Under the pieces are notes generated by a model, which was not told where the DNA came from, made no database searches, and was given only the letters and a program-made list of their open reading frames with translations. Both the position numbers and the translations under genes were made by a program. Positions 1 through 49,013 of a stretch of 49,013 bases of DNA are shown piece after piece. This DNA comes from Candidatus Pacearchaeota archaeon (lineage in GTDB: Archaea > Nanobdellota > Nanobdellia > Pacearchaeales > GW2011-AR1). How positions within the stretch are numbered: position 1 is the stretch's first letter; every line of letters begins with the position of its first letter. The stretch spans positions 1 through 49,013 of the forward strand of contig JACQLK010000026.1 of NCBI GenBank assembly GCA_016204145.1, in the 5' to 3' direction.

Positions 1-348
1 GGTTTTTATTTAGAAGAAAGTTACAACTAACATTGTAATTTTCAGGAGGTTAGCATCTAACCTTCTGTTTATAATAAATTTAGAAATAAAAATCAATCGC
101 AATTCATCCGACGCCTTGAAAGGCGCGGATTTCTTGCGGAATCATTAAATAAATCCCTCTCGCCTTCGGCTCGCCTATTCATGGTTCAAAATCAACTCGC
201 GCCAGATTGGGTTATTAATGAATAAATTTGCCAGAATCAAAGCACTCGGCTTAGCTGAATTTTTCGGTGATGAAAAATATTAATATAAATCTTGCTTATA
301 TTATTATAACGTCGGGTTTTTGGAAGTTAAAATTTAGGTCGCGATTTC
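1..348. other. Non-coding stretch with hairpins and a decayed repeat
   Basis: I see no credible gene here. Several small hairpins are visible: AGGTTAG/CTAACCT around 47-63, CGCCT-TGAA-AGGCG around 112-125, and GATTTC/GGAATC around 128-143. A CTCGCCTTCGGCTCGCC tract lies around 159-175 and resembles the CTTCGCTCGCAA tracts near 10.8, 25.9 and 47.9 kb. From 271 the sequence matches the 5' half of the intergenic repeat family. The dense small hairpins could belong to a structured RNA, but I recognise no known class. Confidence 0.5.
271..343 (+). repeat. Intergenic repeat, copy 1 (degenerate, no G-tail)
   Basis: The block GAAAAATATTAATATAAA is followed by AACGTCGGGTTTTTGG and AGTTAAAATTTAGG. This is the same order as in the copies near 47.4 and 48.9 kb. 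The G-rich tail is missing and the element runs up to the 3' end of gatA. It points along the + strand, opposite to gatA. Confidence 0.5.
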
Positions 349-1662
349 TTAAACTCTCTCGAAGCAATTCGCAATCTGAAGCATTTTCATTTCCTGAAAT
401 TTGTCGCACATTATCTGCATTCCGACAGGAACTCCTTGAATTTCTCCGGAGGGAATTGAGAGTGCGCAGTTCCCCGCAAGATTCGCCGGAATCGTCAGCA
501 TGTCATAAGAATACATTTCCTCGACGGAAATTTTTTCGCCGATTTTGTGCGGAATTCTCGGAACCGTGGGAGAGATTATGCAATCGACGCCTTTGAAAAT
601 TTTTTTCATCTCTGATTCTATTATTTTTTTTACGGCAAGCGACTTGTTGTAATATCTTCCGTGATGCTCCGCTTTTGAAATCTCGCTCCCCCCAAGAATC
701 CTTCTCAAAACCTCCGCTCCCGCGGAATCCTCGATTTTCTTTCCGTATTTTCTTCCGTCGAATCTTCTCGTTCCAGAAAAAAATTCAACATATACAAGAG
801 GATAATATGTTTCAATCGCCAAATCAATGTGGCTTATTGAAATTTTTTTTGTCTTCCACTTGTGCTTTTTCGCCGCCGCCTCAATTTTCTTGCTTATCAA
901 CTCATCAATTCTTTTATCACTTGATTTGAAATCCAAAATTCCAATATTCAAATTTTTTGGAATTTTATCGATTTCATTTGAATTTATTTTTCCTTCTCCT
1001 TCGCTTATCGCGTCGTTCTCGTTTTTTCCGTAAATAACTTCCAAAAGCAGTGCGGCGTCTGAAACATTTCTTGCTATAGGCCCTATTTGGTCTAAAGACA
1101 TTGACAAATCAATCAATCCGTTTCTTGAAACGCTTCCGTAAGTCGGCTTTATCCCGACTACGCCGCAATGGCTTGCTGGATTTCTTATGCTTCCTCCAGT
1201 GTCACTTCCTAAAGCAATGTCGCAAAATCCCGCAGCGACTGCCGCAGCAGAACCGCTTGAGCTTCCTCCCGGAATCAAATTTATATCTTGCGGATTTCTC
1301 GTCGGTCCGAATGCGCTCGTCTCTCCCGAGCCGCCGCACGCAAATTCATCCATGTTTGTGATTCCGATTATCAACCCGTCCTCGTTTTTTATTTTTTTTA
1401 TGACATCGGCGTCGTAAGTTGATTTGTAATTTTCCAATGCCTTTGACGCGCAGCTTGCATTGAGACCGAGAACGTTTATATTCGCTTTCACGGCGATTAT
1501 TTTTCCGGCGAGATTTCCCTTGCTTTTCTTCGCGTCAATAGTCCTCGCCTCTTTCTCAGCGTCGGGATTCAGCTGCAAAAACGCGTTTATCTTTTTCCCG
1601 TTTTTGTCGTTCTTCTCGATTTCTTTGAGGTATTGCTGAAGTTTTTGTAAAGTGGAAGTCAT
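349..1662 (-). CDS. gatA: Asp-tRNA(Asn)/Glu-tRNA(Gln) amidotransferase subunit A
   Basis: GatA is the amidase subunit of GatCAB. It releases ammonia from Gln or Asn so that GatB can convert Asp-tRNA(Asn) (or Glu-tRNA(Gln)) to the amide in the cytoplasm. The amidase-signature Ser-cisSer-Lys triad is visible: Lys59 in VKAN, the GGSSSGS loop at 132-138, and the nucleophile region SDTGGSIR with Ser158. At 437 residues it is near the short end of the family. Its start overlaps the stop of the upstream 157-residue gene by 4 nt, so it is the last gene of a run with the Nudix and NYN genes. A GatC-like gene lies further upstream. With GatD/GatE and a non-discriminating AspRS nearby, Asn-tRNA formation is the likely main job. 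Confidence 0.96.
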   Translation of the reverse strand: MTSTLQKLQQYLKEIEKNDKNGKKINAFLQLNPDAEKEARTIDAKKSKGNLAGKIIAVKANINVLGLNASCASKALENYKSTYDADVIKKIKNEDGLIIGITNMDEFACGGSGETSAFGPTRNPQDINLIPGGSSSGSAAAVAAGFCDIALGSDTGGSIRNPASHCGVVGIKPTYGSVSRNGLIDLSMSLDQIGPIARNVSDAALLLEVIYGKNENDAISEGEGKINSNEIDKIPKNLNIGILDFKSSDKRIDELISKKIEAAAKKHKWKTKKISISHIDLAIETYYPLVYVEFFSGTRRFDGRKYGKKIEDSAGAEVLRRILGGSEISKAEHHGRYYNKSLAVKKIIESEMKKIFKGVDCIISPTVPRIPHKIGEKISVEEMYSYDMLTIPANLAGNCALSIPSGEIQGVPVGMQIMCDKFQEMKMLQIANCFERV

Positions 1663-2132
1663 TTTTTATTTATTGCTTGTTTAACTTTAGAATGTCTCTC
1701 AATTTCATTTAATGCTCTTTGCTTCATTCTTTTATTCTTTTCTGCTCTTATTTTTTCAAATTCTTCGCCGTTTTTCCAAGAAATATCTTTTTTTAGCAAA
1801 TCAATCATGCTGCCTCGGTCTTTTGTTCTTATGACAAGAAAAACTTTTTTATCTCCAAAAAAAACATCTACATCATATTTTTCATTTTTGAATGACCATA
1901 CTCTGTCTGTTATTTCATCTGCATTAACTATCCACTTAATAAAAACAGGGTTTAGGTCGTCGCTATTATCTTCATATTTTTCTTGGAATTTTTTCTTCAA
2001 TTTTTCCCCGTCAAATCCAATATCCCTCATAAATTTTAGGAAAGTGTTCCTAAATTTATTATTTTTCTCAATGGAGTATCTGTGCCAAAATCCGTTATTT
2101 TCTGTTCCAGTCAAAGTAAACTCACTTTTCAT
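1659..2132 (-). CDS. Conserved-looking hypothetical protein, 157 aa
   Basis: I do not recognise this protein. It is soluble and charged with no membrane segment. The N-terminal half (to about residue 65) looks helical. The middle has alternating strands (YDVDVFFGDKKVFLVIRTKD), and the C-terminal 40 residues are a basic helix. It overlaps gatA by 4 nt downstream and the Nudix gene by 4 nt upstream, so the three are probably translationally coupled. The overlap makes a role in tRNA or nucleotide metabolism possible but does not show it. Confidence 0.75.
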   Translation of the reverse strand: MKSEFTLTGTENNGFWHRYSIEKNNKFRNTFLKFMRDIGFDGEKLKKKFQEKYEDNSDDLNPVFIKWIVNADEITDRVWSFKNEKYDVDVFFGDKKVFLVIRTKDRGSMIDLLKKDISWKNGEEFEKIRAEKNKRMKQRALNEIERHSKVKQAINKK

Positions 2133-2533
2133 TTTATCTCTCCCTTTTCAATCAAATAATGAATATTTGGAGCAACATTATATTTTCTTTTTTTAATATC
2201 AGCAATGCCGAGCCACTTAACTTCCCGAATCGGCGGAATCGGCCTGATGTCTTTCTTGTTCAGAAGTTTCGCCATGTAATGAATGAGAACAATGCACATC
2301 TGCTCTTTTGTCTGCGGATTTTTCCACAAGATCATCGGGCTAAGGGGATTCAAAATCTCTATCTGTCCGTTGTTCTCCTCTTTTGTCTCCCGATGACACG
2401 CTTCCTCAAGAGTTTCGACGCCTTCCTCGATTGTCCCGCCGGGAAGCTTATAAAAATCGTCCTTGTCGTCCCGGTTTACCAAAAGCTTTCCGTCCTCGAT
2501 TATCACGGGCCCCGAAGCGATTATGTATTTCAT
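2129..2533 (-). CDS. NUDIX hydrolase
   Basis: A 134-residue Nudix-fold pyrophosphohydrolase. The Nudix box runs from GGTIEEG at about residue 32 to RETKEENNG at about 56. The pattern G-x5-E-x7-RE-x2-EE is intact; the last position is NG rather than the usual G plus hydrophobic. Family members cleave nucleoside diphosphates linked to another group (NTPs, ADP-ribose, RNA caps). The substrate cannot be read from this sequence. It overlaps both neighbours by 4 nt, giving the order NYN, Nudix, unknown, gatA. Pairing with an NYN nuclease hints at RNA or nucleotide turnover, which is inference. Confidence 0.9.
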   Translation of the reverse strand: MKYIIASGPVIIEDGKLLVNRDDKDDFYKLPGGTIEEGVETLEEACHRETKEENNGQIEILNPLSPMILWKNPQTKEQMCIVLIHYMAKLLNKKDIRPIPPIREVKWLGIADIKKRKYNVAPNIHYLIEKGEIK

Positions 2534-3123
2534 TTTTTATTTAATAAGGATTCATCAAAATCTTCTTTAGTTAATGGAATATATTTAGAACAGCAGTTTA
2601 ATAATTCATTTGAAACGGAAAATTTGCTATTTCTTCTTTTGTCAAAATATGAATATAAAATCACTTCCATCTTCCATCTTTTTTTAATATCCCTTATTAC
2701 CGGACAAAAATCCGTATCGGAAGAAACAAGAATTATTTTTTTAACATCTGGGAAATCATCTTTTATGTGGCTTAAATCAATAGTAATTAAGGTATCAACG
2801 CCTTTTTGCTTATATTCTGTATTGCCTTCTGAATTTACTATCCTCTGACATCTTCCTTCTCTTACGGTTATGCTTTTATTTTTTCTAAGCGATTTGAGAA
2901 AATTGTCATATCCCTCTTTTCTTTTTCTTTGTTCATTTGTTGGAGGAGTTTCTTGGAAAGGCGGAGCAGTATAGTAAAATAAATACTTGCAAAAAAGGTT
3001 TTGTTTTTTTGAGATGTTTTCTGCAAGTTTTATTAAATCAAATTTGATGTAAACACCATTGCCAAAATGTTTAGACAGCTTAGAAATAAAACCGCCATCC
3101 AGAAAAACCAAGCAACTGTTCAT
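2530..3123 (-). CDS. NYN domain protein (LabA/DUF88-like putative RNase)
   Basis: This 197-residue protein matches the NYN/PIN-like nuclease fold. The acidic residues expected at the metal site are present: Asp9 in VFLDGGF, Asp110 in KGVDTLITIDL, and Asp136/Asp138 in SSDTDFCPV. NYN proteins are usually ribonucleases acting on tRNA, rRNA or mRNA. The start follows a GGAGGT ribosome binding site by 5 nt, unlike the leaderless genes around it. Upstream is a TATA-like box near 3211-3220 and a TTCG-loop hairpin in the presumed leader. It is the first gene of the run that ends with gatA. Target unknown. Confidence 0.85.
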   Translation of the reverse strand: MNSCLVFLDGGFISKLSKHFGNGVYIKFDLIKLAENISKKQNLFCKYLFYYTAPPFQETPPTNEQRKRKEGYDNFLKSLRKNKSITVREGRCQRIVNSEGNTEYKQKGVDTLITIDLSHIKDDFPDVKKIILVSSDTDFCPVIRDIKKRWKMEVILYSYFDKRRNSKFSVSNELLNCCSKYIPLTKEDFDESLLNKK

Positions 3124-3157
3124 TCAGAACCTCCAAACTCAAGAAATAAAAATTCAT

Positions 3158-3181
3158 CCAGCGACCCCGAAGGATCACTGG
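3158..3181 (-). promoter_or_regulatory. 10-bp hairpin with TTCG tetraloop in the NYN leader
   Basis: On the minus strand CCAGTGATCC-TTCG-GGGTCGCTGG folds into ten consecutive pairs (two of them G-U) closed by a UUCG tetraloop. It lies between a TATA-like box at 3211-3220 and the GGAGGT site of the NYN gene, so it would sit in a leader of about 65 nt. It could regulate the operon, be cut by the NYN nuclease, or help end gatC transcription, since a T-rich stretch follows it. Confidence 0.6.
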
Positions 3182-3250
3182 GGAACATGTTAACGCTAAA
3201 ACAATTGGGGTGTTTATAAATTTTGCCGTTTCTTATGCAAGAGGAGATTT

Positions 3251-3520
3251 TTACCATCCTTTTTTATCCCCGATTATAAAATCCGCATTTTTATTCGGCG
3301 CGTTTTCAAAAACGCGCCTTCTAAAATCATTGTCGGGATTTTTCCCTTCGCCTTCCTTCCTCTCCGATTCGGCGCGCTCAACAAAATTCTCGGAAATTTT
3401 TCCTTCAGCCCTTGAAAGTTTCTTGGAAAAATTATCCATTATCTCCTTCGCTTCTTTTCTTATTCTCTCTTTCTCTTCCTCTGAAACCTTGTGAAACAAA
3501 AAGTCGGACATGAAATCCAA
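3251..3520 (-). CDS. gatC: Probable divergent amidotransferase subunit C (GatC-like)
   Basis: An 89-residue protein of the right length for GatC, the small subunit that wraps around GatA and stabilises the GatCAB complex. The first 45 residues form a charged helix. The C-terminus FENAPNKNADFIIGDKKGW resembles the conserved GatC tail (NAP, a short spacer, then an aromatic and hydrophobic strand). The rest of the canonical N-terminal GatC pattern is weak. It lies upstream of gatA on the same strand, separated by the NYN-Nudix-unknown cassette. Met4 (3511) is an alternative start. Without a profile search this is a reasoned call, not a certain one. Confidence 0.6.
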   Translation of the reverse strand: MDFMSDFLFHKVSEEEKERIRKEAKEIMDNFSKKLSRAEGKISENFVERAESERKEGEGKNPDNDFRRRVFENAPNKNADFIIGDKKGW

Positions 3521-3564
3521 AAGAAGAGGAAGGTTAAAAAATTAACGTTATTCTTGGACAGGCA

Positions 3565-3957
3565 TCAGTAGGGGATAACTTTTAATCCTTTGATGTTCTC
3601 AAAATGCTTGACATTTCTCGTAATAATTTTATCGACGCCATTTGACAAGAAAATAGAAGCCGCCATAGAGTCAAATTTTCCGACAGATTTTCCAATATGT
3701 TGATGATGCCAAAAAATTTCTGCCGCTTTTTTACAAGATACCCTATTTAACGGAAAACTTTCAAAATTCATGTATAAATCATCATAGAATCTTTCTTCTT
3801 CCTTGTGTTTTAAATTCTCGGGGTTTAAGCCGAACATTAATTCCAAATAGCTAATTTCATTAAGGAAAATTTTCTCATCAACCTTATCAAGCAATTCAAG
3901 AATCTCCTTTTTATTTTTAAAAAGGTCTATTAAGGCAGTCGTATCTAATCCGATCAT
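3565..3957 (-). CDS. vapC: VapC-type PIN domain toxin
   Basis: A 130-residue PIN-domain ribonuclease, the toxin half of a type II toxin-antitoxin pair. VapC toxins typically cut tRNA or rRNA. The metal-binding acidic residues are visible: Asp5 in IGLDTTALID, Glu39 in SYLEL, Asp96 in KFDSMAA. The typical C-terminal TRNVKHF motif is also present. The start overlaps the antitoxin stop by 4 nt, the usual coupled arrangement. No lesion is seen, so it should be active when free of antitoxin. Confidence 0.9.
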   Translation of the reverse strand: MIGLDTTALIDLFKNKKEILELLDKVDEKIFLNEISYLELMFGLNPENLKHKEEERFYDDLYMNFESFPLNRVSCKKAAEIFWHHQHIGKSVGKFDSMAASIFLSNGVDKIITRNVKHFENIKGLKVIPY

Positions 3958-4247: not shown

Positions 4248-4257
4248 ATGTGCGTAG

Positions 4258-4271: not shown

Positions 4272-4308
4272 TATAAACTTTTCGGATTAAAATTTTATCT
4301 GTAAAAAA

Positions 4309-5600: not shown

Positions 5601-5822
5601 TCAGTTAAAACTGAACTTAAATGGAAGCTCAAGCTTAATGCCATCGGAACTTGTTCTCTCCTTAAAATTATGAATGGCGATTCCTTTTATTTCATTTGTA
5701 TTTTTATCCACAATTCTAAACAATCCGTTTCCCAAATTATCAAAAAAACAATTGGAAACGTCTCCGTTGGTTATCTCCAAAAAATCGCCTTTCTCGTCAT
5801 AATATATGTTCATGTTTTTCAT
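5601..5822 (-). CDS. DUF2283-like small protein
   Basis: A 73-residue protein. The opening INIYYDEKGDFLEIT-type strand pattern (here MNIYYDEKGDFLEITNG) is typical of DUF2283, a small beta-rich family of unknown role often found next to small nuclease-like genes. Met4 (5813) is an alternative start and would fit the motif better. The 26-nt overlap with the upstream gene indicates coupling, and the pair resembles a toxin-antitoxin layout with this protein as the antitoxin candidate. Confidence 0.75.
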   Translation of the reverse strand: MKNMNIYYDEKGDFLEITNGDVSNCFFDNLGNGLFRIVDKNTNEIKGIAIHNFKERTSSDGIKLELPFKFSFN

Positions 5823-6123
5823 TTGAGCCAGTTATTTTATTTGTGTAAAATGATGTTATTATAAACCCGTCGCCGTTTAAATATTTAACTGAAACAAAAA
5901 GATATCTTTCTCTCGGCTCCATGTTCTTATATTCTCGGTAAAAATAACTGATTTTTTTGCCCGCCCCGTCGTGTCTGACTGTCATAGGATTTTTTATTGT
6001 TTCTTCAATCCTCTCCAAAGATTCGTGCATATGCGGATGTTTTTGAATATGCTTCCATTGTTTTCCTGTTAATTTTATCTTTCTTCTTGTTTTATCGGAG
6101 ATTTCAAACACAATATTGTCCAT
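5797..6123 (-). CDS. Small RelE/barnase-like nuclease candidate (PBECR-type)
   Basis: A 108-residue protein. The pattern IKLTGKQWKHIQKHPHMHE, ETIKNPMTVRHD, YFYREY, RYLFVSVKYL and FIITSFYTN is like the small phage-barnase/EndoU/RelE-like nuclease fold. His and Lys residues in the first helix and the terminal strand pair are where such folds keep their active site. It overlaps the DUF2283 gene by 26 nt. The layout suggests a toxin-antitoxin pair, but I cannot confirm catalysis from sequence. Confidence 0.6.
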   Translation of the reverse strand: MDNIVFEISDKTRRKIKLTGKQWKHIQKHPHMHESLERIEETIKNPMTVRHDGAGKKISYFYREYKNMEPRERYLFVSVKYLNGDGFIITSFYTNKITGSNEKHEHIL

Positions 6124-6163
6124 TCAGTTATTAAAAAAGAGGTATTATAAAAAACTATCAATA

Positions 6164-7483
6164 TCACGGCGTCAACCTATCCCTATCTCTCGGAAACATC
6201 GTCGCCTCTTTCACATTGTCCAAGCCGCAAAGAATCTGCGTCATTCTTTCAAGACCGATGCTCCATCCCGAATGCGGCGGCGCTCCGAATCTGAAGCTGT
6301 CAATGTATGATTTGAAGTCCTTCGGATTCAATCCCTTTGCCTTTATTCTTTCCGCAAGAAGTTCCGGAAGATGGATTCTCTGTCCGCCAGACGAGATTTC
6401 CATTCCGCCATACAAAGCGTCAAAACCCTCGCTGAATTTCGTATTGCTTTTTTCTCCCGACGGCATTATGTAAAACGGCTTCAATGCTGTCGGCCACGAA
6501 TGCGTGAAAACAATGTCTCCCGGAAAAATAGAACAAAGTTTCCTCTCCTGTTCCGGCGTGAAATCCTCTCCAATTTTTCCGCCGGCTTTTTTTATCGCGT
6601 CGTCGTAAGAAAGATAAACTCCCTTCGGAATTTTCAGAGTAACGCCAAGCGTTTTCAATTCCCCCTTGTTTTTTTCCATTACCTCTTTTACAATATGCTG
6701 AACAGCATCTTCAAGCTCTTTCATAACCGCAAACTGGTCTGCAAACGCGACTTCAATGTCCATCTGTCTGATTTCATTAATGTGCCTCGTCGTGTTGTGC
6801 TTCTCCGCTCTCCAAACAGGCGTTATCATAAATGTTTTTTCCATGGAACACGCAATCATCTGCTTGTATAATTGGGGGCTTTGAGCAAGATACGCCTTCT
6901 TTTCAAAATACTGAACAGGAAACAAATCAGTTCCGCCCTCGGAAGATGCGGAAATTATCCCCGGCGGCTGCATTTCTATAAAATCCTTTTTGTAAAAAAA
7001 CTCCCTGAAAGAATTTTCAATCGTGCTTTGAATTTTGAAAATCGCTTGCGTTTTTTTCCTGTGAAAATCCAAAAATCTGTAATCAAGCCGCTTTGCGATT
7101 TCGGTTTTCGAGTTGTCCGACTCGTTGAACGGAATGTCAATCGGCAGCTCATCGGCTTCATTGATTACGATTATCTCTTCGGGATTTATTTCCTTTCCGC
7201 CCGGTGCCTGCTTTGAATCCACAATTTTTCCCTTGACATAAATCACCGACTCTCTCGGTATTTTTTCCATGTCTTTAAAAATTTTTTCCGGTGTCTTTCC
7301 TTTCACCCCGGTTATTTGAATCATTCCCGAAGAGTCCCTCAAAATTATGAACTTTATTTTGCTCAAATCCCGCGAATTGTGAACCCATCCCGCGACTTCA
7401 ACATCTTTTTTCTTCGACGAAAAAACACCTCCGATTAAAATTCTGTTTTTGCTGAATTCGGAAAGGTTGAATTTGTCGGGCAT
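6164..7483 (-). CDS. aspS: Aspartyl-tRNA synthetase, archaeal type, probably non-discriminating
   Basis: A class II synthetase of 439 residues charging tRNA(Asp). Motif 2 is VWRAEKHNTTRHINE and motif 3 is GWSIGLERM. The OB-fold anticodon domain comes first. In archaeal AspRS, discrimination against tRNA(Asn) was linked to Trp26 and Lys85 (Thermococcus numbering), while non-discriminating enzymes have His and Pro. Aligned from memory, this protein has His35 in GWVHNSRDL and Pro94 in KQAPGGKE, the non-discriminating pair. It would also make Asp-tRNA(Asn), which GatCAB then amidates, consistent with gatC/A/B in the same island. A TATA-like box at 7503-7513 predicts a leaderless mRNA. Confidence 0.95.
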   Translation of the reverse strand: MPDKFNLSEFSKNRILIGGVFSSKKKDVEVAGWVHNSRDLSKIKFIILRDSSGMIQITGVKGKTPEKIFKDMEKIPRESVIYVKGKIVDSKQAPGGKEINPEEIIVINEADELPIDIPFNESDNSKTEIAKRLDYRFLDFHRKKTQAIFKIQSTIENSFREFFYKKDFIEMQPPGIISASSEGGTDLFPVQYFEKKAYLAQSPQLYKQMIACSMEKTFMITPVWRAEKHNTTRHINEIRQMDIEVAFADQFAVMKELEDAVQHIVKEVMEKNKGELKTLGVTLKIPKGVYLSYDDAIKKAGGKIGEDFTPEQERKLCSIFPGDIVFTHSWPTALKPFYIMPSGEKSNTKFSEGFDALYGGMEISSGGQRIHLPELLAERIKAKGLNPKDFKSYIDSFRFGAPPHSGWSIGLERMTQILCGLDNVKEATMFPRDRDRLTP

Positions 7484-10746: not shown

Positions 10747-10830
10747 TAAAATAAATGGTGTTGAAGTTTTTAATTATTTCGCTGATTCAAGTTTGCCCCG
10801 CTTCGCTCGCAAATTAACCAGGCGCTTCAC

Positions 10831-10910
10831 TAAAAAATGTTAATTCAAAATATACGCATTAAACCTAATGAAAGCGGTTATTGGTTAAAATCGGTTTTCT
10901 CGGGGAGAGA
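10831..10910 (+). repeat. Intergenic repeat, copy 2
   Basis: AAAAATGTTAATTCAAAA, then AAGCGGTTATTGGTTAAAATCGG and a weak G tail CGGGGAGAG. It is preceded by the tract TTTGCCCCGCTTCGCTCGCAAA (10793-10813), which has near relatives at 25938 and 47857. Orientation is +, against both flanking minus-strand genes. Confidence 0.55.
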
Positions 10911-13361: not shown

Positions 13362-13766
13362 ATGAAAGAGGAATTTAAATTTTTATCTGAAGAGCATCCG
13401 ACATCAAAAATTCCGAGAACTCTCGGGCAAAAAACCTCTGACAATCTGACGAAATGGGCCGGCAGCTGGGCTTTTATAATCCTCTTCGGATTCATGTTGC
13501 TTTCTTGGATTTTGATAAATTCTTACTGGATTTTATTCGGAAGAACTTGGGACCCTTATCCTTTCATTCTTTTGAATTTGGTTTTGTCCTGTCTTGCCGC
13601 GATTCAGGCGCCGGTAATTCTCATGTCGCAAAACAGGCAATCCCAAAAAGACAGAATTAAGGCGCAATATGATTACGCGGTTAATGTAAAAGCCGAAAAA
13701 GAAGTCCGCGAGATAAAAAAAGAGTTGAATGAGATAAAAAGAATTCTTGAAAAGAAAAAATATTAG
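13362..13766 (+). CDS. DUF1003 family membrane protein
   Basis: A 134-residue protein with two membrane segments, around 36-54 (FIILFGFMLLSWILINSYW) and 67-88. The conserved DUF1003 pattern WDPYPFILLNLVLSCLAAIQAPVILMSQNRQ follows, then a basic coiled-coil tail (about 95-134). The family is widespread but its function is unknown. A TATA-like box at 13330-13340 lies about 27 nt before the ATG. The downstream gap up to gatD holds two copies of the intergenic repeat. Confidence 0.9.
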   Translation: MKEEFKFLSEEHPTSKIPRTLGQKTSDNLTKWAGSWAFIILFGFMLLSWILINSYWILFGRTWDPYPFILLNLVLSCLAAIQAPVILMSQNRQSQKDRIKAQYDYAVNVKAEKEVREIKKELNEIKRILEKKKY

Positions 13767-13779
13767 TGCAAAAAATTTA

Positions 13780-13863
13780 TCACGGTTTTATCAATTAATT
13801 TAGAAATTATTATCCCTCATAACATCGCGTTTTATCATTAACTTTTGGTTTTGCGGGACGGGC
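13780..13863 (+). repeat. Intergenic repeat, copy 3
   Basis: ATCGCGTTTTATCATTAAC, then TTTTGGTTTTGCGGGACGGGC. It is closest to the copy near 47.9 kb (CCGCGGTTTTATCATTAAAATTG followed by GGGGCGGG). It lies directly before copy 4. Confidence 0.6.
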
Positions 13864-13880
13864 AACTTCGCGGGAATTTT

Positions 13881-13967
13881 TTGGAAAATATTAATATAAA
13901 CCGCCGTCATAAATTTGATAGAGGTCGTTGTTGGTTAACCTTTCTTAGTGGCGGGCGGGTGGGAGCA
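13881..13967 (+). repeat. Intergenic repeat, copy 4 (good full-length example)
   Basis: AAAATATTAATATAAACC, then CATAAATTTGATAGAGG, then TCGTTGTTGGTTAACC, then TTAGTGGCGGGCGGGTGGGAG. Order and spacing match the copies at 26.2 and 33.2 kb almost base for base in the core. Confidence 0.75.
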
Positions 13968-14075
13968 AATTTGAAAGAATCAGAAAATATTTTTTAGTTT
14001 TGTTGGATGAGTGAACAAAATTGCAAAGTTGTGCGGAGGGTTGTGTGGAATTTTGAGAAGGATATAATTTATTAA

Positions 14076-21021: not shown

Positions 21022-21056
21022 AAAAATATATTTTAATTGAGTTTTTAAAAATTATT

Positions 21057-21185
21057 GTGATAAAAATATCTTGCATATTATTTATTTTTCAATTTTGGGT
21101 TTCGCGGGGTGGGCGGAGAGCGATTTCGCGTGTAATCCATAAAAGCGAGGTCGCGAGTAGGGGGATTGGAGGTGGGACAAATAAA
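21057..21185 (+). repeat. Intergenic repeat, copy 5 (with hairpin)
   Basis: After GGGTTTCGCGGGGTGGGCGG comes the stem GCGATTTCGC (21120-21129), loop GTGTAATCCATAAAA and GCGAGGTCGC (21145-21154). All ten positions pair as RNA. The element then ends in GGAGGTGGGA. The loop is identical to copy 12 near 47.96 kb. Orientation +, against both flanking genes. Confidence 0.75.
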
Positions 21186-21600: not shown

Positions 21601-21722
21601 CGAGCCCAGGAGGAATTGAACCTCCGCCTACAGGTTACTCCGAAGCCCGCTCGCGATAAATAAAATTGTCTCGCAAACTTCCTCGCCGAAGCCTGTCATT
21701 CTGTCCGTTAAACTATGGGCCC
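21601..21722 (-). tRNA. tRNA-Arg(UCG) with a 50-nt intron
   Basis: The cloverleaf is complete: acceptor GGGCCCA/TGGGCTC with discriminator G, D stem GTTT/GAAT with GG in the loop, anticodon stem ACAGG/CCTGT, variable loop AGGC, and T stem GGAGG/CCTCC with loop TTCAATT. The mature anticodon loop CTTCGGA gives anticodon UCG. The intron (21636-21685) interrupts position 37/38. CTTC pairs with GGAG as the 4-bp central helix, with 3-nt bulges GGC and TAA, a canonical archaeal bulge-helix-bulge. Exons are 21686-21722 and 21601-21635. No 3' CCA is encoded. A TATA-like box around 21742-21752 is about 25 nt upstream. Confidence 0.93.
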
Positions 21723-25548: not shown

Positions 25549-26223
25549 TATGAAAATTTCCTATTTTTATGCTGAAAAAGTATTTTACTTATTATTTCCT
25601 TTTTCATTATAAAAGTCAGAAATCTCGCGCCTGATTAAATTAGGGTTTAACCGTTCATTTATTCAGACAGGAAAAATCTGAACAAACTAACAGGGTTTAA
25701 TTTTGGCTGTAGCGAGGACTAAACTAAACGCCGAATTCTTCCACACGCAAGTCAGTCCTGTTTGCATAACCGAAAGAGATTATCTGCATTTATAAAATTT
25801 GCCATGGATTTTGTATCACTTTAAAATTATAGAAACAATTTATATACTTTTGATTCGCCAAAGATTTTAGCGCGAATTTTTTGTGAATTTTCAGCGCATA
25901 CTGCATATTGATTTGGATTAAATTGCAAAAATTTGTCTCGCTTCGCTCGCAATATCTTCCTACTTCAAATCCGCCCTCGACAGGATTTTCCGCCAAAAAA
26001 ATTTTAATTGTAAAAACGTCGCGATTAAATGGTTATTGCATTAGAATCTTCTTTAGAAAAAAAATTTGGCGGAGCCGAGCGTTTTGACTTTGACAAATTT
26101 TATTTTATCAATGGTGAAGTCAGGACGCGAGTTGGTTTTGAGCCGTCAATATCTAAACGAAGTGAAGCAAAATTTAGAGGGATATTTGTTTATCGGGCGG
26201 GCAAGCAGTTTTGCGAGAATCAT
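25549..26223. other. Gene-poor stretch
   Basis: No convincing gene. TATTTCCTTTTTCATTAT occurs twice, near 25538 and 25591. A tract TTTGTCTCGCTTCGCTCGCAA lies at about 25934, like those at 10.8 and 47.9 kb. GGGCGGGCAAGC with GTTTTGCGAG near 26196 looks like another decayed tail of the intergenic repeat. A 75-codon frame at 26029-26256 overlaps that repeat-like sequence and I do not count it as a gene. Confidence 0.5.
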
Positions 26224-26369
26224 TTGAAAGATATTAACATAAAACCTCAATCATAAATTTTAATGGAAGTCGTTGTTAGTTAACATTTTTAGGGGTGGGC
26301 GGTCGGAGGATTGGGGGGGAGTTAGTTTTCCATATTCACAACGAGAGGAGTTGTGAGTTGGCGGGATGA
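26224..26369 (+). repeat. Intergenic repeat, copy 6 (with hairpin)
   Basis: GAAAGATATTAACATAAAAC, CATAAATTTTAATGG, then GTCGTTGTTAGTTAAC and GGGGTGGGCGGTCGG. It then has a hairpin TCACAAC-GAGAGGA-GTTGTGA (26336-26356) and a closing GGCGGGATG. It lies in a convergent gap between proS and the ART-like gene. Confidence 0.75.
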
Positions 26370-27954: not shown

Positions 27955-28237
27955 TTTTTAAAATATTTACCCACCTGATAAATTTAACCCCAAAATAATA
28001 AACAGCCCGTATATAAATATTTTTATGCTTCCGGAATTTTAGGAAAATTCGGAAAAAAATGATTTTTGCGAAAATTTTGCGCGTTTTTTAGGGATATTTT
28101 TTGTTTCAGTAGAAAATTTTGTGGAAATTATTTTAAAGATTAATTTGTAAACACGATTGTAAACATTAAGAAGATTTTGTGTAAAATTAACTTTGATTTG
28201 CTTTGGGGGGGAACAAATTATGGGAATTAAAAGATAT
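27955..28237. other. AT-rich gap between deoxyhypusine synthase and disA
   Basis: No gene seen. It holds the disA promoter region (TTAAATTT about 26 nt before its start) and AT-rich sequence. Near 28173-28212 it has GTAAAATTAAC followed by GCTTTGGGGGGGAAC, a weak match to the intergenic repeat. Confidence 0.5.
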
Positions 28238-30155: not shown

Positions 30156-30237
30156 TTTTATTAAAGATTAAATCTGACAAATTCAGGATATTTATATGCT
30201 CCGAATCGCGTTTTTGAATCCGGCGGGAATCGTCTGT

Positions 30238-30377
30238 GAAGAATATTAATGTCAAACCCGGGGCATAATTTCACAATGCCTTGCTTAAAGGACTTAAATA
30301 AAAATCGCATTGAAATCGTCGCTCATGCGAATATGGTGGAGTTATTAGTTAAAATTTTTTGCCTGGCGGGCGGGGAC
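30238..30377 (+). repeat. Intergenic repeat, copy 7
   Basis: GAATATTAATGTCAAAC, then an insert of about 80 nt, then ATGCGAATATGGTGGAGTT, ATTAGTTAAAATTTTTT and CTGGCGGGCGGGG. The last 50 nt are nearly the same as copy 9 at 36.4 kb. Orientation +, antisense to both flanking genes. Confidence 0.7.
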
Positions 30378-30399
30378 AAACAAACTTATTCCCTTTCAC

Positions 30400-33044: not shown

Positions 33045-33390
33045 ATTTTTAAAATATTTTTGTAGATAAGATTATAAAACTTTTTTAATGTAAAACTCCT
33101 TTTTGATTGATATGGGTGATTTTATGGGTTGGCGGTTTCTTGAAAATTTTTTGAGAAATATCAATGTAAACCTTCATCATAAATTTAATAGATGTTGTTG
33201 GTTAACCTTTATTTTTATGGGGTGGGCGAGCGTTTGCACGAGTCATATGTTTGTAATCCAAAACGAGTGCGGGCGTGAGCAGAGGCGGGGATAAATTTGA
33301 AGAATAAAAATTATCTTTTGTTTTCGTCAACCAATTTTCAACAAAACCCGCAACAACTAAATTTTTAAAACATCTTCCCTTTTTCTTTTA
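33045..33390. other. Gap before alaS with an intergenic repeat
   Basis: No gene seen. It holds repeat copy 8 and the alaS TATA-like box (TAAATTTTTAAAAC, centred about 25 nt before the ATG). A first TTATGGGTTGGCGG at 33122 may be the tail of another decayed copy. Confidence 0.6.
33151..33297 (+). repeat. Intergenic repeat, copy 8 (with hairpin)
   Basis: GAGAAATATCAATGTAAACC, CATAAATTTAATAGATG, TTGTTGGTTAACC and GGGGTGGGCG. Then comes the stem CGTTTGCAC (33231-33239) with GTGCGGGCG (33267-33275), nine pairs as RNA. The loop contains TTTGTAATCCAAAA. It closes with GAGGCGGGGA. The stem sequence differs from copies 5 and 12 yet still pairs, and TGTAATCCA is kept. Confidence 0.75.
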
Positions 33391-36306: not shown

Positions 36307-36391
36307 AAAAACCCTCTTTTGTCGACATAAACCAAAATGGAAAAAGAATTATAAAAATCTTCTTATGGAGACGTTCGCAGGGGGATTTTTT

Positions 36392-36522
36392 AAAAGATAT
36401 TGGTGCAATGCTATAATGCGAATATGGCAGAGTTGTTAGTTAACATTTATTTGTCTGGCGGGCGGGAAATCTTTTTGTGAGATTAAAATTTTCCGACAGG
36501 CGGGAGCATTGGATGGCGGGAT
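36392..36522 (+). repeat. Intergenic repeat, copy 9
   Basis: AAAAGATATTGGTGCAATG, ATGCGAATATGGCAGAGTT, GTTAGTTAACATTTATTTG, CTGGCGGGCGGG. A small hairpin AATCT/AGATT follows, and a second G tail GGATGGCGGGATT. It is very close to copy 7. Orientation +, antisense to both flanking minus-strand genes. Confidence 0.75.
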
Positions 36523-43908: not shown

Positions 43909-43938
43909 GGAAAATCGGGAGATTAAGTTAAGTAATAT

Positions 43939-44956: not shown

Positions 44957-45077
44957 TATCTTTTTTGCTATTTTGAATTTTTAAGCATTATTGCGATTTA
45001 CATCACTTGTCCAGTAATCATCAACACCCAAAACCTCCCCTAAAAACCTTTAAATACCAATTCTCTAATATTAAATC

Positions 45078-45290: not shown

Positions 45291-45305
45291 ATTTAGCGAT
45301 TAAAA

Positions 45306-45599
45306 GTGGAAAAAAAAGAAGGCAATGAAAACGTTGTTTTTATCGGCTCAAAGCCGTTTATGAATTACATTACGGGAGTTGTGATGCAATTCACGACAAA
45401 AAATCGCGATGAAGTTATTGTAAAGGCGAGGGGAAAATGGATATCGCGCGCCGTTGATGTCGTAGAAGCGGCGAGAAAAAAATTTCTGAAAGACAAAAAT
45501 CTCAGGATAAAAAATGTTTTGATTGACAGCGCGGAAATGGAAACCGACGATGGAAAAAAAATGAATGTTTCATCTATTGAGATAACTCTGGGGAAATAG
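45306..45599 (+). CDS. albA: Alba-family DNA/RNA-binding chromatin protein
   Basis: A 97-residue protein. NVVFIGSKPFMNYITGVVMQF, then EVIVKARGKWISRAVDVVEAA, is the classic Alba pattern, including the Lys in the SKPxMNY loop that is acetylated in some archaea. It compacts chromosomal DNA and binds RNA. The start is GTG at 45306, close behind eS17, so the two are probably one transcript. Confidence 0.95.
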   Translation: MEKKEGNENVVFIGSKPFMNYITGVVMQFTTKNRDEVIVKARGKWISRAVDVVEAARKKFLKDKNLRIKNVLIDSAEMETDDGKKMNVSSIEITLGK

Positions 45600-45647
45600 T
45601 GCTGTGAAGGACATAAAACCTTTTAATGTGAATTTATATCTGAATTT

Positions 45648-45989
45648 ATGGACAATTATATAACATCTCTTTTAGGTGGAGAGAATATACCACTTGCACA
45701 CACTGAAATCCCAGTCGCTCGCTATTGTCCTATAGATAAAACACAATTATTTAAAGAGAAGATTGGGCGTGAAGGTCCTGAATATCGTTGTGTAACCTGT
45801 GATGCATCTTACCCCCTTGAAAATAATGAAATTTCCGAAGAAGAATTAAGAAGACAGGCATTAATTCACTTTAATTCAATAGAAGAAAAATTAAACGACA
45901 TAAATCGAGAATTGCCTGCAATGGAAAAACTAAAAAGTAAATTACTAAAAATAATTGCTCTTGCAGAGCAAAATTCTCTTACTTCTTAA
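45648..45989 (+). CDS. Zinc-ribbon and coiled-coil hypothetical protein
   Basis: A 113-residue protein. Two Cys pairs, CPIDKTQL with an upstream Cys-free start and CVTCDASYP, suggest a partial zinc ribbon (Cys28, Cys49, Cys52); the fourth ligand is unclear. The second half is a coiled coil. A TATA-like CTTTTAATGTG is about 26 nt upstream. The gene is AT-rich. No family recognised. Confidence 0.7.
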   Translation: MDNYITSLLGGENIPLAHTEIPVARYCPIDKTQLFKEKIGREGPEYRCVTCDASYPLENNEISEEELRRQALIHFNSIEEKLNDINRELPAMEKLKSKLLKIIALAEQNSLTS

Positions 45990-46015
45990 ATAAAGAATAT
46001 GGGGCATCTATATTT

Positions 46016-46489
46016 TTATTTTCGCTTTGAAAGTTTTGAAGGAACTCCTCTCAGCTGACCTCTAAATGGTTTTGGAAAGATATCTTTCAAAAAGGTATAA
46101 TATACTGTCTCTCTTTTCTCATCAGCCACAATATATTTGAAATTTCCGTCGGCAAATTCGCTCAAAAATTGCAAACATACACCGCATTGAGTTATTCCTT
46201 TATCTGTATTTTCTTCAAACGGGACTATGGCAATTTTAGTCAACTTAACATTTCCGTCGCCAACAGCATTGCAAGCGGCGGCAACTTCTGCATGAACATT
46301 TAATGTTGATGTGACATTCCCGACGTTAACTCCGGTATAAATTTTCCCGTTTGCAGTTTTAACAGCCGCGCCAACTTTCGCGCCGGAACGGGTTGAATAA
46401 CCAAATTTCCTTACGGCAATTGCCTCATTTATCAATTCTTTTTCGTCTTCAGGTAATTTATCAAAACTTATTTTATACTCTCTAAACAT
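46016..46489 (-). CDS. cdd: Cytidine deaminase
   Basis: It deaminates cytidine or deoxycytidine to uridine in pyrimidine salvage. The 157-residue protein has the zinc motif NVHAEVAAACNAV (His-Ala-Glu) and QCGVCLQFLSEF with the Cys pair, plus GAKVGAAVKTANGKIYTGVNV before them. It is slightly longer than the usual 130 residues, with a short C-terminal tail. TTTTATAAATT centred 25 nt upstream gives a leaderless start. Confidence 0.93.
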   Translation of the reverse strand: MFREYKISFDKLPEDEKELINEAIAVRKFGYSTRSGAKVGAAVKTANGKIYTGVNVGNVTSTLNVHAEVAAACNAVGDGNVKLTKIAIVPFEENTDKGITQCGVCLQFLSEFADGNFKYIVADEKRETVYYTFLKDIFPKPFRGQLRGVPSKLSKRK

Positions 46490-46538
46490 TATATTTAGAA
46501 AGATAAATAATTTATAAAACTTCCATTATAGAAAATAA

Positions 46539-46757
46539 TCAAATAGAATATCTGCCGTGCAAATCTTCGGAATTTTTCTGCGTCAATTCTTTATTCGCAG
46601 AATTTCTCGTCCTGTAATTGGAATAACCCCATTTTGCAAGACCGTATAATGAAAGACCCGCCACTGCGACTTCTGCGATTGCAAATACAGCCAAAGGACC
46701 CATTAGCTCAGGAGGATAATCGTTAGCAAGATTAGAGAAAATTGTTTCCAAATCCAT
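46539..46757 (-). CDS. Small membrane protein, 72 aa
   Basis: The start at 46757 (MDLETIFSNL) is chosen because CTTATAAAG lies about 25 nt upstream; an ATG 45 codons earlier would place the promoter box inside the gene. One membrane segment lies at about 20-41 (GPLAVFAIAEVAVAGLSLYGL), with a basic hydrophilic tail. No family recognised. Confidence 0.65.
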   Translation of the reverse strand: MDLETIFSNLANDYPPELMGPLAVFAIAEVAVAGLSLYGLAKWGYSNYRTRNSANKELTQKNSEDLHGRYSI

Positions 46758-46809
46758 TTTCACAAACAGCAAAGGCACTTTATAAGTATTATTATAAATT
46801 AAAATAATT

Positions 46810-46857
46810 ATCACGTCGGATTTTAGAATCAAAATGGATTTCTCGGGAGGGCGGGAC
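46810..46857 (+). repeat. Intergenic repeat, copy 10 (short form)
   Basis: ATCACGTCGGATTTTAGAATC, AAAATGGATTTCTCGGGAGGGCGGGA. It aligns with the second half of copies 11 and 13 (CGCGTCGG, TTTTAGGATTAAC, GGGCGGG). It has no 5' AT block because the next gene's promoter lies there. Confidence 0.55.
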
Positions 46858-46881
46858 ACTAAACCGCATAGAAAATTCTTT

Positions 46882-47241
46882 TTACTCAACAAAAACCCCG
46901 TTCAAATTTCCTTCTTGCGTCGGGCGGTTTGTGATTCTGACTTTTCCAGCGTCGGTCTCAACAATTGTTCCTTTTGTGATTATGTTTTGCCTCGCGAGGA
47001 ATCGGTTTGACGGCGTCTCGACGACGTTTTTTATTTCCGCCTTTTTCGTTTTCCCTTTTGTTTGAATGTTCACGGTTTTCGCCCTGAGCAAAAACGCCTT
47101 TACATTTCCGCCGCGGACTATTTTTATTTTTCTTTTGTCTTCGCCGAGTCGGACGTTCTTCTTCTGTCCTGTAAGTTCAAACAGTTTTTTCTTTCTGCTT
47201 TTGATGTATTTCCCGCCTGTGATTTTTCTTCCTTTATTCAT
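46882..47241 (-). CDS. rps8e: Ribosomal protein eS8
   Basis: A 119-residue small-subunit protein: MNKGRKITGGKYIKSRKKKL, then VRGGNVKAFLLRAKTVNI and RFLARQNIITKGTIVETDAG, typical of archaeal eS8. GCAGGT about 5 nt upstream of the ATG acts as a ribosome binding site. It is divergent from LSm across a 319-nt gap. Confidence 0.95.
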   Translation of the reverse strand: MNKGRKITGGKYIKSRKKKLFELTGQKKNVRLGEDKRKIKIVRGGNVKAFLLRAKTVNIQTKGKTKKAEIKNVVETPSNRFLARQNIITKGTIVETDAGKVRITNRPTQEGNLNGVFVE

Positions 47242-47560
47242 CTTACCTGCAAGTGAATTCTACAAAATTTTTTAATTTTAGTTTGTGCATAAAGATATAT
47301 CCCTAAGAATTATTTAAATAGCTTTCTGTGAAGCTTTGTTAAAAAACCCAAGTAGTTTTAATTTGTTTAAATGAATAATTTTCTCAAATTTTCTGAAAAA
47401 GGGTTAATGTAAAAGAACTATCGCGTCGGGCTTTGGAGTTAACGCCGGATTCTTAGGGGCGGAGTGATGGCGGCGGGAGAATAAAATTATTCGCATCACA
47501 AAAAGATTTATAAACGAATCATTCAAATAACTTGTATAAATATTCCATAATTTGGACAAA
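47242..47560. other. Divergent gap between eS8 and LSm with repeat copy 11
   Basis: No gene seen. It holds the eS8 promoter region (AAAATTAAAAAATTTT near 47268), repeat copy 11 and the LSm TATA-like box (TATAAATATT centred 25 nt before 47561). Confidence 0.55.
47393..47480 (+). repeat. Intergenic repeat, copy 11
   Basis: GAAAAAGGGTTAATGTAAAA, ATCGCGTCGGGCTTTGGAG, TTAACGCCGGATTCTTAGGGG, CGGAGTGATGGCGGCGGGAG. It is close to copy 13. The core GGAGTTAACG is intact. Confidence 0.7.
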
Positions 47561-47809
47561 ATGGCTAACGGAATCGAAAGACCTTTGGATTTGCTGAACA
47601 ACTCGAAACACAAGGAAGTTCTTGTTCAATTGAAAGGGGACAAGCAATTCGTCGGAACGCTTCTCGCTTTTGACATTCACATAAATCTTGTTCTTGACAA
47701 CACGAAGGAAATGCAAAACAACGAGGTGAAGAGAAACATCGGTCTCACTTTTTTAAGGGGTGACACGATCATTTTCATCTCTCCCGCTTCCACGATGATG
47801 AAGAAATAA
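47561..47809 (+). CDS. LSm (Sm-like) RNA-binding protein
   Basis: An 82-residue archaeal Sm protein starting at 47561 (MANGIERPLDLL). The first in-frame start is TTG, and the TATA-like box is 25 nt before the ATG. The Sm1 motif VLVQLKGDKQFVGTLLAFDIHINLVL and the Sm2-like FLRGDTIIFISP are clear. It forms heptameric rings that bind U-rich RNA and tRNA-like species. Confidence 0.95.
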   Translation: MANGIERPLDLLNNSKHKEVLVQLKGDKQFVGTLLAFDIHINLVLDNTKEMQNNEVKRNIGLTFLRGDTIIFISPASTMMKK

Positions 47810-47851
47810 TTCTTAAGTTTGATTTAATAAGAAAACTTCGTTTAAATTTGC

Positions 47852-48016
47852 AACAAAAAAACTTGTCTCCTTCGCTCGCAAAAATAAAGAATGATAACTA
47901 TAAATCCGCGGTTTTATCATTAAAATTGTTCCTATGGGGCGGGTGGCGAGCGATTTTGCGTGTAATCCATAAAAGCGAAGTCGCGAGCATGGGATTTTGG
48001 AGGCGGGATGAAATTT
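47852..48016 (+). repeat. Intergenic repeat, copy 12 (with covarying hairpin)
   Basis: After ACTTGTCTCCTTCGCTCGCA and CCGCGGTTTTATCATTAAAA comes GGGGCGGGTGGC. Then the stem GCGATTTTGC (47950-47959), loop GTGTAATCCATAAAA and GCGAAGTCGC (47975-47984), with all ten positions paired. It ends GGAGGCGGGA. Compared with copy 5, one G-U pair becomes A-U and one C-G becomes U-G, keeping pairing. Confidence 0.75.
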
Positions 48017-48070
48017 TTAAACAAATTCTTTCTCACATAATTTTATAAATACCTTCTGTAAATTTCTTTT

Positions 48071-48880
48071 ATGGTTTTGGGATACGACGAGCCGCGTCCA
48101 ACGAGGAAAAATTACGATTCTTTCCTTGAAAGATTAGTCGCCGGGCTTGAAAAATTAAACAATCCTGAAATATGCCTGATGCTCTATGGCTCTTATGTTC
48201 GTGAGGACTTCGTTCCCGGAAGAAGCGACATTGACGGAGTTTTAATTTTCCCGCGAGATGTCATAATCGGAAAAAGCGTTATGAGATACTTGTCTAAAAC
48301 CATTGCAAACGCGCAAAGAGGAAACAACGTTCCAATTCAAATAACGCCAACCGACTTAAGGACAATGTCCGACGGAAGATTTAATTCATATGAAGAAAAT
48401 TTCAAAAATTATTTCAAAGAAGAGGGAAAAATTATTTTTGGTCATGACTACAGAGATAGATTTAGATTTGAACCCCCCTCAATTTCAGAACAAACTCCGC
48501 TAAGATTTAATCTAAGAAAGTCAAGAATCGGTTTGTTGCATTCAGAATATGATAAAGAAAAAAATTACGGAAAATTTTTAGAAAATTTAAACAAAGCAAT
48601 GAACGCCGCAAGCCGCGGCTCAAAGCAAATTCTTTTCCTGATGGACGGAAAATTAAGAAAAAACAGATTTTCTGCGCTTGACGAAATCCGTAATATCTTT
48701 CCTCAAGTTGATACTAAACCCTTGAAAAGAATAAAAGATATCTACGACAATCCTAGAAAATTGGACGGGGTTTACAAAAGCCCCATACAAGCAACGAGAT
48801 TATTTTACAATTCAGTAACCTTTTTTGAAGAAATGATAAAAGCGTATCTTGACGCAAATCCACGAAGTCAAGAGAGATAA
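48071..48880 (+). CDS. Nucleotidyltransferase domain protein
   Basis: A 269-residue protein. MLYGSYVREDFVPGRSDIDGVLIF at about 37-60 has the GS...DxD core of the polymerase-beta nucleotidyltransferase fold. The rest is helical (about 150-265), possibly a HEPN-like or nucleic acid binding part. A TATA-like TTTTATAAATACC is centred about 24 nt upstream. It could be a nucleic acid or protein modifying enzyme; no close family recognised. Confidence 0.75.
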   Translation: MVLGYDEPRPTRKNYDSFLERLVAGLEKLNNPEICLMLYGSYVREDFVPGRSDIDGVLIFPRDVIIGKSVMRYLSKTIANAQRGNNVPIQITPTDLRTMSDGRFNSYEENFKNYFKEEGKIIFGHDYRDRFRFEPPSISEQTPLRFNLRKSRIGLLHSEYDKEKNYGKFLENLNKAMNAASRGSKQILFLMDGKLRKNRFSALDEIRNIFPQVDTKPLKRIKDIYDNPRKLDGVYKSPIQATRLFYNSVTFFEEMIKAYLDANPRSQER

Positions 48881-48908
48881 TTTTGATTTCTAAATTTAAT
48901 TAGAATTA

Positions 48909-49013
48909 TTTGAAAAATGTTAATATAAAAGTAAATATGAATATTAATGGAAATTTATATCGTCGCGTCGGTTTTAGGATTAACATCTGTTCTCAAGGGC
49001 GGGTGGGCGGGGA
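48909..49013 (+). repeat. Intergenic repeat, copy 13 (reaches the window end)
   Basis: TTTGAAAAATGTTAATATAA, an insert, ATCGTCGCGTCGGTTTTAGG, ATTAACATCTGTTCTCAAGG, GCGGGTGGGCGGGGA. It may continue beyond the window. Confidence 0.7.

Follow-up and report, generated by a model that had tools for sequence, protein, structure and literature searches.

A uniformly oriented intergenic repeat family in a Pacearchaeota genome, with a possible origin as a small mobile element

Small interspersed repeats are normally present in both orientations, and it is unusual for MITEs to keep to one direction across hundreds of kb. KOPS, which are short G-rich words, are oriented over long distances and keep a constant relation to replication. 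To our knowledge, DPANN archaea have hardly been studied with respect to replication or DNA exchange. Lagging-strand insertion of the IS200/IS605 type is known to produce a bias in orientation (PMC5371812), and integrons are known in Nanoarchaeota (PMC9668308). As far as the cited accounts describe them, successive REPs of a BIME face alternate ways (PMC2817692) and BOX elements have been proposed to be parasitic mobile elements (PMC3049150).

The repeat considered here is a previously unnamed short non-coding family located between the genes of a small symbiont-type archaeon. A genome-wide profile search found 91 copies in the 756-kb genome of this Pacearchaeota MAG (G000), and 70 copies were found by profile search in a genome of the same genus (G001). 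The window, that is, the whole analysed stretch of 49,013 nucleotides, is rich in copies relative to the genome-wide density of about one per 8 kb. An earlier note had listed 13 intergenic copies, and each of them was located on the + strand of this stretch (table 1); in the genome-wide profile search, 10 of the 13 are individually strong (E 3.7e-5 to 2.3e-15) and the copy at 30.3 kb is moderate (E 1.3e-4). The core word GTTGTTGGTTAAC, with two mismatches or fewer, occurs six times against 0.75 expected. The extrapolation from about one copy per 3.8 kb to hundreds per genome was too high, the actual number being tens per genome. Across G000 the density is uneven, with 8 copies in 20 kb at one extreme and 2-3 in 44-55 kb at the other, and the copies are mostly old and diverged (~65% identity).

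Table 1. Repeat copies in the window and element-filled gene junctions compared between G000 and G001
Feature	Position	Strand	Support or counterpart
Copy; left arm GAAAAATATTAATATAAAT, right arm/G tail poor	258..335	+	R1 E 1.0e-4; nhmmer E 0.08
Copy between two - genes	10820..10909	+	nhmmer E 8e-11
Tandem pair, unit 1, at convergent gene end	13752..13864	+	nhmmer E 4.1e-7
Tandem pair, unit 2, terminating in GGCGGGCGGGTGGGA	13863..13993	+	nhmmer E 6.2e-13
Degenerate copy; G tail GGGGTGGGCGG and second hairpin (GCGATTTCGC/GCGAGGTCGC)	21043..21163	+	Core weak, E 0.05
Strong type-A copy	26198..26318	+	nhmmer E 2.3e-15
14th, candidate copy, absent from the earlier list	28135..28212	+	R1 E 2.4e-4; nhmmer only E 0.46
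Insertion containing copy 30265-30382; possible TCAT duplication	30156..30399 (C20:30156)	+	Flanking genes overlap by 4 bases (ATGA) in sister genome
Copy with second hairpin (GCGTTTGCAC/GTGCGGGCGT), upstream of AlaRS	33133..33260	+	nhmmer E 4.7e-11
Copy between two - genes, position common to G001	36376..36493	+	nhmmer E 1.3e-6
Copy with tail CGGGAGGGCGGGA	46787..46859	+	nhmmer E 3.7e-5
Copy in divergent gap before LSm gene	47373..47500	+	nhmmer E 4.1e-9
Type-B copy (CCGCGG loop) with second hairpin	47857..47993	+	nhmmer E 1.2e-9
Copy with canonical three-tetrad G4 tail GGGCGGGTGGGCGGGG	48899..49012	+	nhmmer E 5.7e-11
Filled junction	C5:6023		Gap in G001 20 bp
Filled junction	C5:1871		Gap in G001 22
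Filled junction	C21:12196		Counterpart gap 0
Filled junction	H22:16500		Counterpart gap 23
Filled junction	H23:5552		Counterpart gap 29

The unit is ~110 nt long and modular, consisting of AAATGTTAATGTAAAA, a loop, TTTTATGTTAACATTTG, a T-run and GGGGCGGGCGGGA. The AT block and the GTTAAC core that the earlier note had distinguished form a single imperfect palindrome, of which each is one arm. Units are often arranged in tandem, with variable ends around tandem internal units, and head-to-tail units share junctions at the G tail; some carry a second hairpin and, optionally, a second G-run. The G tail and hairpin of the 21.1 kb copy are 88% identical over 58 nt to positions 47936-47993 of the 47.9 kb copy, and G001 has near-identical units (85-90%) that are preceded by different partner units. 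The copy upstream of AlaRS is also present in G001, there as a three-unit tandem (L128 9614-9912). To the left of some copies lies an inverted hairpin module. In the window, a left-side hairpin module (F4/F6) at 196 precedes the first copy.

The single orientation extends far beyond the 49 kb of the window. On contigs with two or more copies the minority orientation accounts for 1/87 copies in G000 and 5/67 in G001, where 28.4 +/- 2.9 and 23.6 +/- 2.5 minority copies are expected by chance, and restriction to copies with E<=1e-5 leaves 0/58 and 3/39. Other interspersed or intergenic repeat families of the same genome, taken as a control, are mixed (minority 7/27 and 3/14). Random orientation throughout the genome, which had been named beforehand as a refuting observation, is in the literal sense not what is found. 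Convergent, divergent and tandem contexts are used roughly as available and the strands of the flanking genes are mixed, which bears out the view that the repeats are not UTRs or terminators of their neighbours. Where gene blocks are inverted between the species, the orientation of the element tracks the local domain and not the genes (C3:63485 vs H9:21-22k; C13:46461 vs H1:2.3-2.6k; C6:5 vs H2:1.8k). The proposed link to replication direction does not hold as a simple rule: orientation is uniform on almost every contig, but among the 12 significant contigs of the draft genome, with the leading strand inferred from 4-fold GC skew, it is opposite to the G-rich (compositional leading) strand on C3, C5, C9, C13, C20 and C22 and the same on C12, C14, C21, C28, C32 and C34. 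Neither whole-contig GC skew nor gene strand is consistently related to orientation, and TA skew gives a weak trend only, which fails along the orc1 chain of contigs. Switches of orientation are few (H1 in G001, the C31 and C2 joins in G000), and none was matched to a mapped origin or terminus.

Insertions of 150-400 bp, comprising one to three units each, occupy junctions whose flanking genes lie close together or even overlap in the sister genome. In this comparison, which involves a single sister genome at ~65% protein identity, 12 element-filled junctions have short element-free counterparts, the presence/absence pattern expected of MITE-type repeats. The best case is H19:32594, where the flanks align well and AAAATTAA, the insert and ATTAACAATAG correspond to AAAATTAACAATAG in the other genome. 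Apparent target-site duplications are short (2-5 bp) and inconsistent (ATTAA, TCAT, ATT, AT), and the 5' boundaries vary. Synteny breakpoints are not marked by elements (13/41 broken vs 68/258, p=0.46), and therefore the elements appear to move without genes. In searches of 37 genomes taken as relatives, of two more genomes and of 38 additional AlaRS loci, the repeat was found only in the two genomes of the same genus; other members of the taxonomic family gave at most three weak matches, and the AlaRS-close genomes G037 and G038 reached only E 0.05-0.1. The plasmid and phage collections searched contain no match to the repeat. A match to a known transposon-derived repeat, the other observation named as refuting, was not found among named transposon repeats.

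In view of the insertion polymorphism, with junctions filled in one genome and empty in the other, a mobile origin fits better, and we consider it probable that the repeat is a mobile element. The whole explanation, namely a genus-restricted, non-autonomous, MITE-like small element with polarised insertion, has in our judgement an even chance of being correct, and a mechanism based on single-strand polarity is doubtful. According to this explanation, units are gained and lost in intergenic gaps and would be moved by an enzyme supplied in trans; they also join head-to-tail at the G tail, owing to which tandem copies keep one orientation. Insertion would be polar and would use one chromosome strand over long domains, the target being most likely single-stranded or replication-associated. 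No transposase common to both genomes was detected, G001 (~89% complete) has no match to a tyrosine recombinase, Y1 transposase or reverse transcriptase, and no autonomous partner element was found for the repeat ends. A retroelement was considered and rejected: the sole reverse transcriptase of G000 adjoins DGR-like variable-protein genes, and G001 has none.

Orientation that is uniform on nearly all contigs of two species could also reflect a selected, KOPS-like guide for segregation, with one orientation per arm, which a DNA translocase or replication protein reads directionally. Comparison with the sister genome suggests 24 contig joins, over 19 of which the orientation domains continue, and in the chain C9-C17-C5-C13-rcC20-rcC3-rcC10, which starts with orc1/cdc6, all copies point towards orc1. 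However, a signal read during replication should have a constant relation to the leading strand, whereas six contigs are anti and six are co; with the uneven density and the free loss of copies between sister species, this makes such a guide quite unlikely. That the copies are independent genes for small RNAs ending in a G-quadruplex tail is very unlikely. The AT-rich block might be taken for a TATA box, a second hairpin, with G-T pairs on one strand, is clear in some copies, and four runs of G2+ are present in 73 of 161 elements on the element strand and in none on the other (3.6% of control intergenic strands). However, RNA genes are not expected to show long-range strand uniformity, and the structured RNA suggested earlier finds no support: the RNAalifold consensus of the copies predicts no pairs, the palindrome arms do not covary, folding of the core does not exceed shuffled energies (z -0.14, no strand difference) and an Rfam search with the copies gave no match. 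Our initial reading of the palindrome as an RNA hairpin was unsupported by the pair count, and AAATGTTAATGTAAAA ... TTTTATGTTAACATTTG is probably a protein-recognised dyad rather than folded RNA. The suggestion of a G-quadruplex element survives in part, since four-run potential does lie on one strand and exceeds what base composition gives (39% vs 24% in composition shuffles), but the predicted potential of the G tail is moderate, and the three-tetrad motif occurs in only 25 elements.

Two further explanations invoke known enzymes. In an IS200/IS605-like or REP-like single-stranded DNA element, an HUH Y1 enzyme would place the top strand in the template of the lagging strand, and orientation would thereby record replication direction; G000 carries two Y1 transposase genes, and the elements contain hairpins and are stacked all one way. 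Both Y1 genes, however, have flanking hairpin ends of their own that differ from the repeat, on which ground an IS200-derived MITE was rejected; moreover, G001 holds 70 copies despite having no Y1 match, the arms do not covary, and the draft-genome GC skew shows no constant relation between orientation and the compositional leading strand (6 anti, 6 co). We regard this origin as decidedly improbable. Integron attC sites, or a chromosomal CALIN, would explain the single orientation, as cassettes are always inserted in one direction, and the palindromic GTTAAC arms with a variable loop and the head-to-tail arrays made this reading attractive. It failed on the R box (the core matches GTTRRRY in 0/104), on the integrase (the three tyrosine recombinases of G000 are archaeal XerA or weaker matches below the integron-integrase cut-off, and G001 has no match) and on cassettes (core genes on mixed strands separate the copies, which do not lie at breakpoints), and we consider it extremely unlikely.

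The polarised mobile element, as the preferred reading, has a wider implication. A family that is freely gained and lost between sister species, and yet is one-directional across hundreds of kb and independent of genes, amounts to a natural recorder of strand polarity, which could tell which strand of a DPANN chromosome is exposed as single-stranded DNA and whether replication is conventional. It is unlikely that the copies keep a single rotational sense round nearly all of the chromosome, without a switch between replichores; if they did, some DNA transaction, such as unidirectional or rolling-circle replication or the transfer of a chromosome as a single strand, would treat one entire chromosomal strand differently during part of the life cycle, and the repeats would be its fossil record.

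Compared with known systems, the repeats share with KOPS their G-richness and their orientation over long distances, but lack the constant relation to replication. With IS200/IS605-derived MITEs they have in common orientation bias, hairpins and the absence of a long target duplication; on the other hand, the resident Y1 elements have other ends, and the repeats have no fixed leading-strand relation. Like the REPs and REPINs of REP-RAYT systems they are abundant short extragenic palindromes, but no RAYT-type gene flanked by repeat units was found, nor any Y1 match in G001, and their orientation is uniform, whereas REPs, as the cited account presents them, alternate in BIMEs (PMC2817692). They resemble attC arrays and CALINs, including archaeal ones (PMC9668308), in their one orientation, palindromic arms, variable loop and tandem arrays, but differ in having no R-box match, IntI or cassettes. 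Pneumococcal BOX elements, in the parts of the source relied on here, have a terminal inverted repeat and a candidate IS partner, which was not found for the repeats, and no chromosome-scale uniform orientation is reported there (PMC3049150). Nevertheless, BOX elements, whose modular structure is A-Bn-C, are likewise small, composite intergenic repeats built of modules with tandem internal units, a likeness of modular description in which no sequence relation is apparent.

The repeat family and its one-way orientation are real, well beyond chance. An iterated profile HMM placed 91 non-overlapping copies in the genome of the window (the window being contig C20 of a draft archaeal genome of 756 kb in 34 contigs, 88% complete; E<1e-3) and 70 in its same-genus sister genome (89% complete; E<2e-3), about 11% being missing from each. 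Where contigs bear two or more copies, 1/87 and 5/67, respectively, face the less common way, while coin flips would give 28.4 ± 2.9 and 23.6 ± 2.5; the uniformity that the earlier note had described for the window extends, contig by contig, well beyond it. Per-contig counts are 12/0, 11/0, 0/12, 0/8 and 0/5 in the former and 15/0, 0/12 and 0/9 in the latter; among strong copies (E<=1e-5) the minority falls to 0/58 and 3/39. Other interspersed modules of the same genome are mixed (minority 7/27 and 3/14), and the uniformity is therefore a property of this unit. Its proposed independence from neighbouring genes is also confirmed, the gaps around two-flank copies in the genome of the window being tandem in 49 cases, convergent in 18 and divergent in 13, near the proportions of available gaps. 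The exceptions in the sister genome include a tandem at H1:2.3-2.6 kb, opposite to three other copies at H1:15-26 kb. The sole clear within-contig switch, from three - to three + copies, lies on this contig (C1 of the sister, 2.6-15.4 kb), where the copies flank a stretch without orthologs in the genome of the window; a terminus, an inversion or a misassembly might account for it.

A link to replication direction was not borne out as a single rule. Along the synteny chain C9-C17-C5-C13-rcC20-rcC3-rcC10 (about 240 kb; rc, reverse-complemented) all copies point towards orc1, and GC skew at four-fold sites, after correction for coding strand, places them opposite the G-rich strand. Contigs C12, C14, C21, C28, C32 and C34 show the significantly reverse relation, with elements on the G-rich strand, and a single leading-strand relation is therefore unsupported. 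A nearly chromosome-wide single direction fits the genome of the window at least as well, both readings being limited by the draft genomes. Of 24 contig joins deduced from the sister genome, 19 keep the orientation; four of the five discontinuous joins represent two small translocated segments, and one has an 11-kb gap. In the reciprocal test, which used contigs of the genome of the window to join those of the sister, 6/12 joins agree, and most of the failures again involve the C3/H9 and C34/H22 segments.

Junctions were compared through 431 reciprocal best pairs (median identity 65%), with ORFs of 80 aa or more crudely called in both genomes. Twelve junctions that hold elements in one genome are short and element-free in the other; at one, C5:6813, a degenerate unit is still visible in the sister. 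In the clearest case, H19:32594-32941, AAAATTAA is followed by some 300 bp holding element units and then by ATTAACAATAGTTACCC, where the genome of the window has AAAATTAACAATAGTTACCC. Another insertion is window 30156-30399, at a junction where the sister's two genes have a four-base overlap. What look like target duplications (ATTAA, TCAT, ATT, AT) are short and inconstant, 5' ends are variable, and synteny breakpoints show no element enrichment (p=0.46). Of the copies at some 14 positions common to both genomes, most have the same orientation relative to genes. Three positions are discordant (C3:63485/H9, C13:46461/H1, C6:5/H2): there the genes have been inverted or relocated as a block, and in each genome the copies keep the direction of the contig they lie on (in the case of H1, of its local end). 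These few cases therefore suggest that the chromosomal domain sets the orientation and turnover restores it, and that it is not passed on together with the genes.

The consensus of 50 copies reads AAAAATnTTAATGTAAAA, a loop containing AATnATAAA, and GTTTTnnGTTAACATTGGTTTnTTGGGGnGGGnGGG; read directly, its left block and GTTAAC core are inverted repeats at 14/16 positions. The loop is of three types: AATCATAAATTTTAATGG, a tight CCGCGG, and ATCGCGTCGG. Successive units lie head to tail at a spacing of about 95-130 nt, joined by GAGCAACTTTGCGAGAGAAATTTATTTGAA, and the terminal unit of an array ends in GGGTGGGCGGGTGGGA. Some copies carry a second hairpin 3' of the tail (GCAATTTCGC...GCGGGGTTGC), an inverted relative of which occurs on the left side of some copies.

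Features of the two genomes (C, contigs of the genome of the window unless marked; H, sister contigs)
Feature	Location	Strand	Remark
orc1/cdc6	C9:1640-1963		
orc1/cdc6	C13:18500 (sister)		
Tandem array	H22:31824-32160		
Tandem array	H10:76096-76433		
Tandem array	L128:9614-9912		sister locus by AlaRS, three units
XerA-type recombinase	C24:12507-13343		
XerA-type recombinase	C26:7030-7854		
XerA-type recombinase	C6:18176-19486		
IS200-type Y1 transposase	C3:48421-48858		strong terminal hairpins
IS200-type Y1 transposase	C27:26503-26940		strong terminal hairpins
Reverse transcriptase ORF	L051 (C21:20001-26643), 5768-6586		
Variable-protein-like ORFs	L051, 641-4001		
tRNA gene	window 21601-21722	-	match over 122 bases; missed by ARAGORN
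Unnamed intergenic family F2	e.g. C3:26169-26242, window 25539		AT-rich palindromic core
Unnamed intergenic family F3	e.g. C13:5279-5373		mixed orientation

An independent RNA, which the earlier note had considered, finds no support: no consensus secondary structure was found for the repeat, pairing between its arms does not exceed that of shuffles (68.8% against 69.4%), and the core shows neither a folding excess nor a strand-dependent one. The suggested G-quadruplex gained partial support, the G tail matching a loosely defined four-run pattern on the element strand in 73/161 copies, whereas no copy matches it on the opposite strand. As shared movers, the tyrosine recombinases (XerA type) and the reverse transcriptase fail, being found in the genome of the window but not in the sister, as far as its 89% completeness shows, and the Y1 transposases fail because their element ends are unrelated to the repeat. 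Related elements were absent from phage and plasmid collections and from 38 further AlaRS loci, and 35 other relatives gave weak matches at most. The AlaRS encoded in the window shares 75% identity with its counterpart in Candidatus Pacearchaeota archaeon NC_groundwater_178.

Several contigs share the region of the C27 Y1 element at their ends, and the assembly breaks there. The reverse transcriptase adjoins several related proteins with WNPSGA..ALGVR-like tails and a MoxR-like ATPase, and its locus looks like a diversity-generating retroelement; 128-140 bp at its contig end recur identically at the ends of C16 and C19, perhaps as template/variable repeats. The tRNA gene probably contains an intron, given the span of its match.

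Our best reading, to which we give even chances, is one of small mobile repeats lying in one direction. We do not class them with integrons, REP-RAYT, IS200/IS605 or ncRNA, because for each of these a defining feature was looked for and is lacking. Replication-related orientation bias is known for transposons such as IS608, ISDra2, Tn7 and others (PMC5371812), and the bias as such is therefore not new; we could not match one this complete over whole contigs without a fixed leading-strand relation. Among known kinds, it is MITEs or BOX-type composite repeats (PMC3049150) that this repeat works most like.
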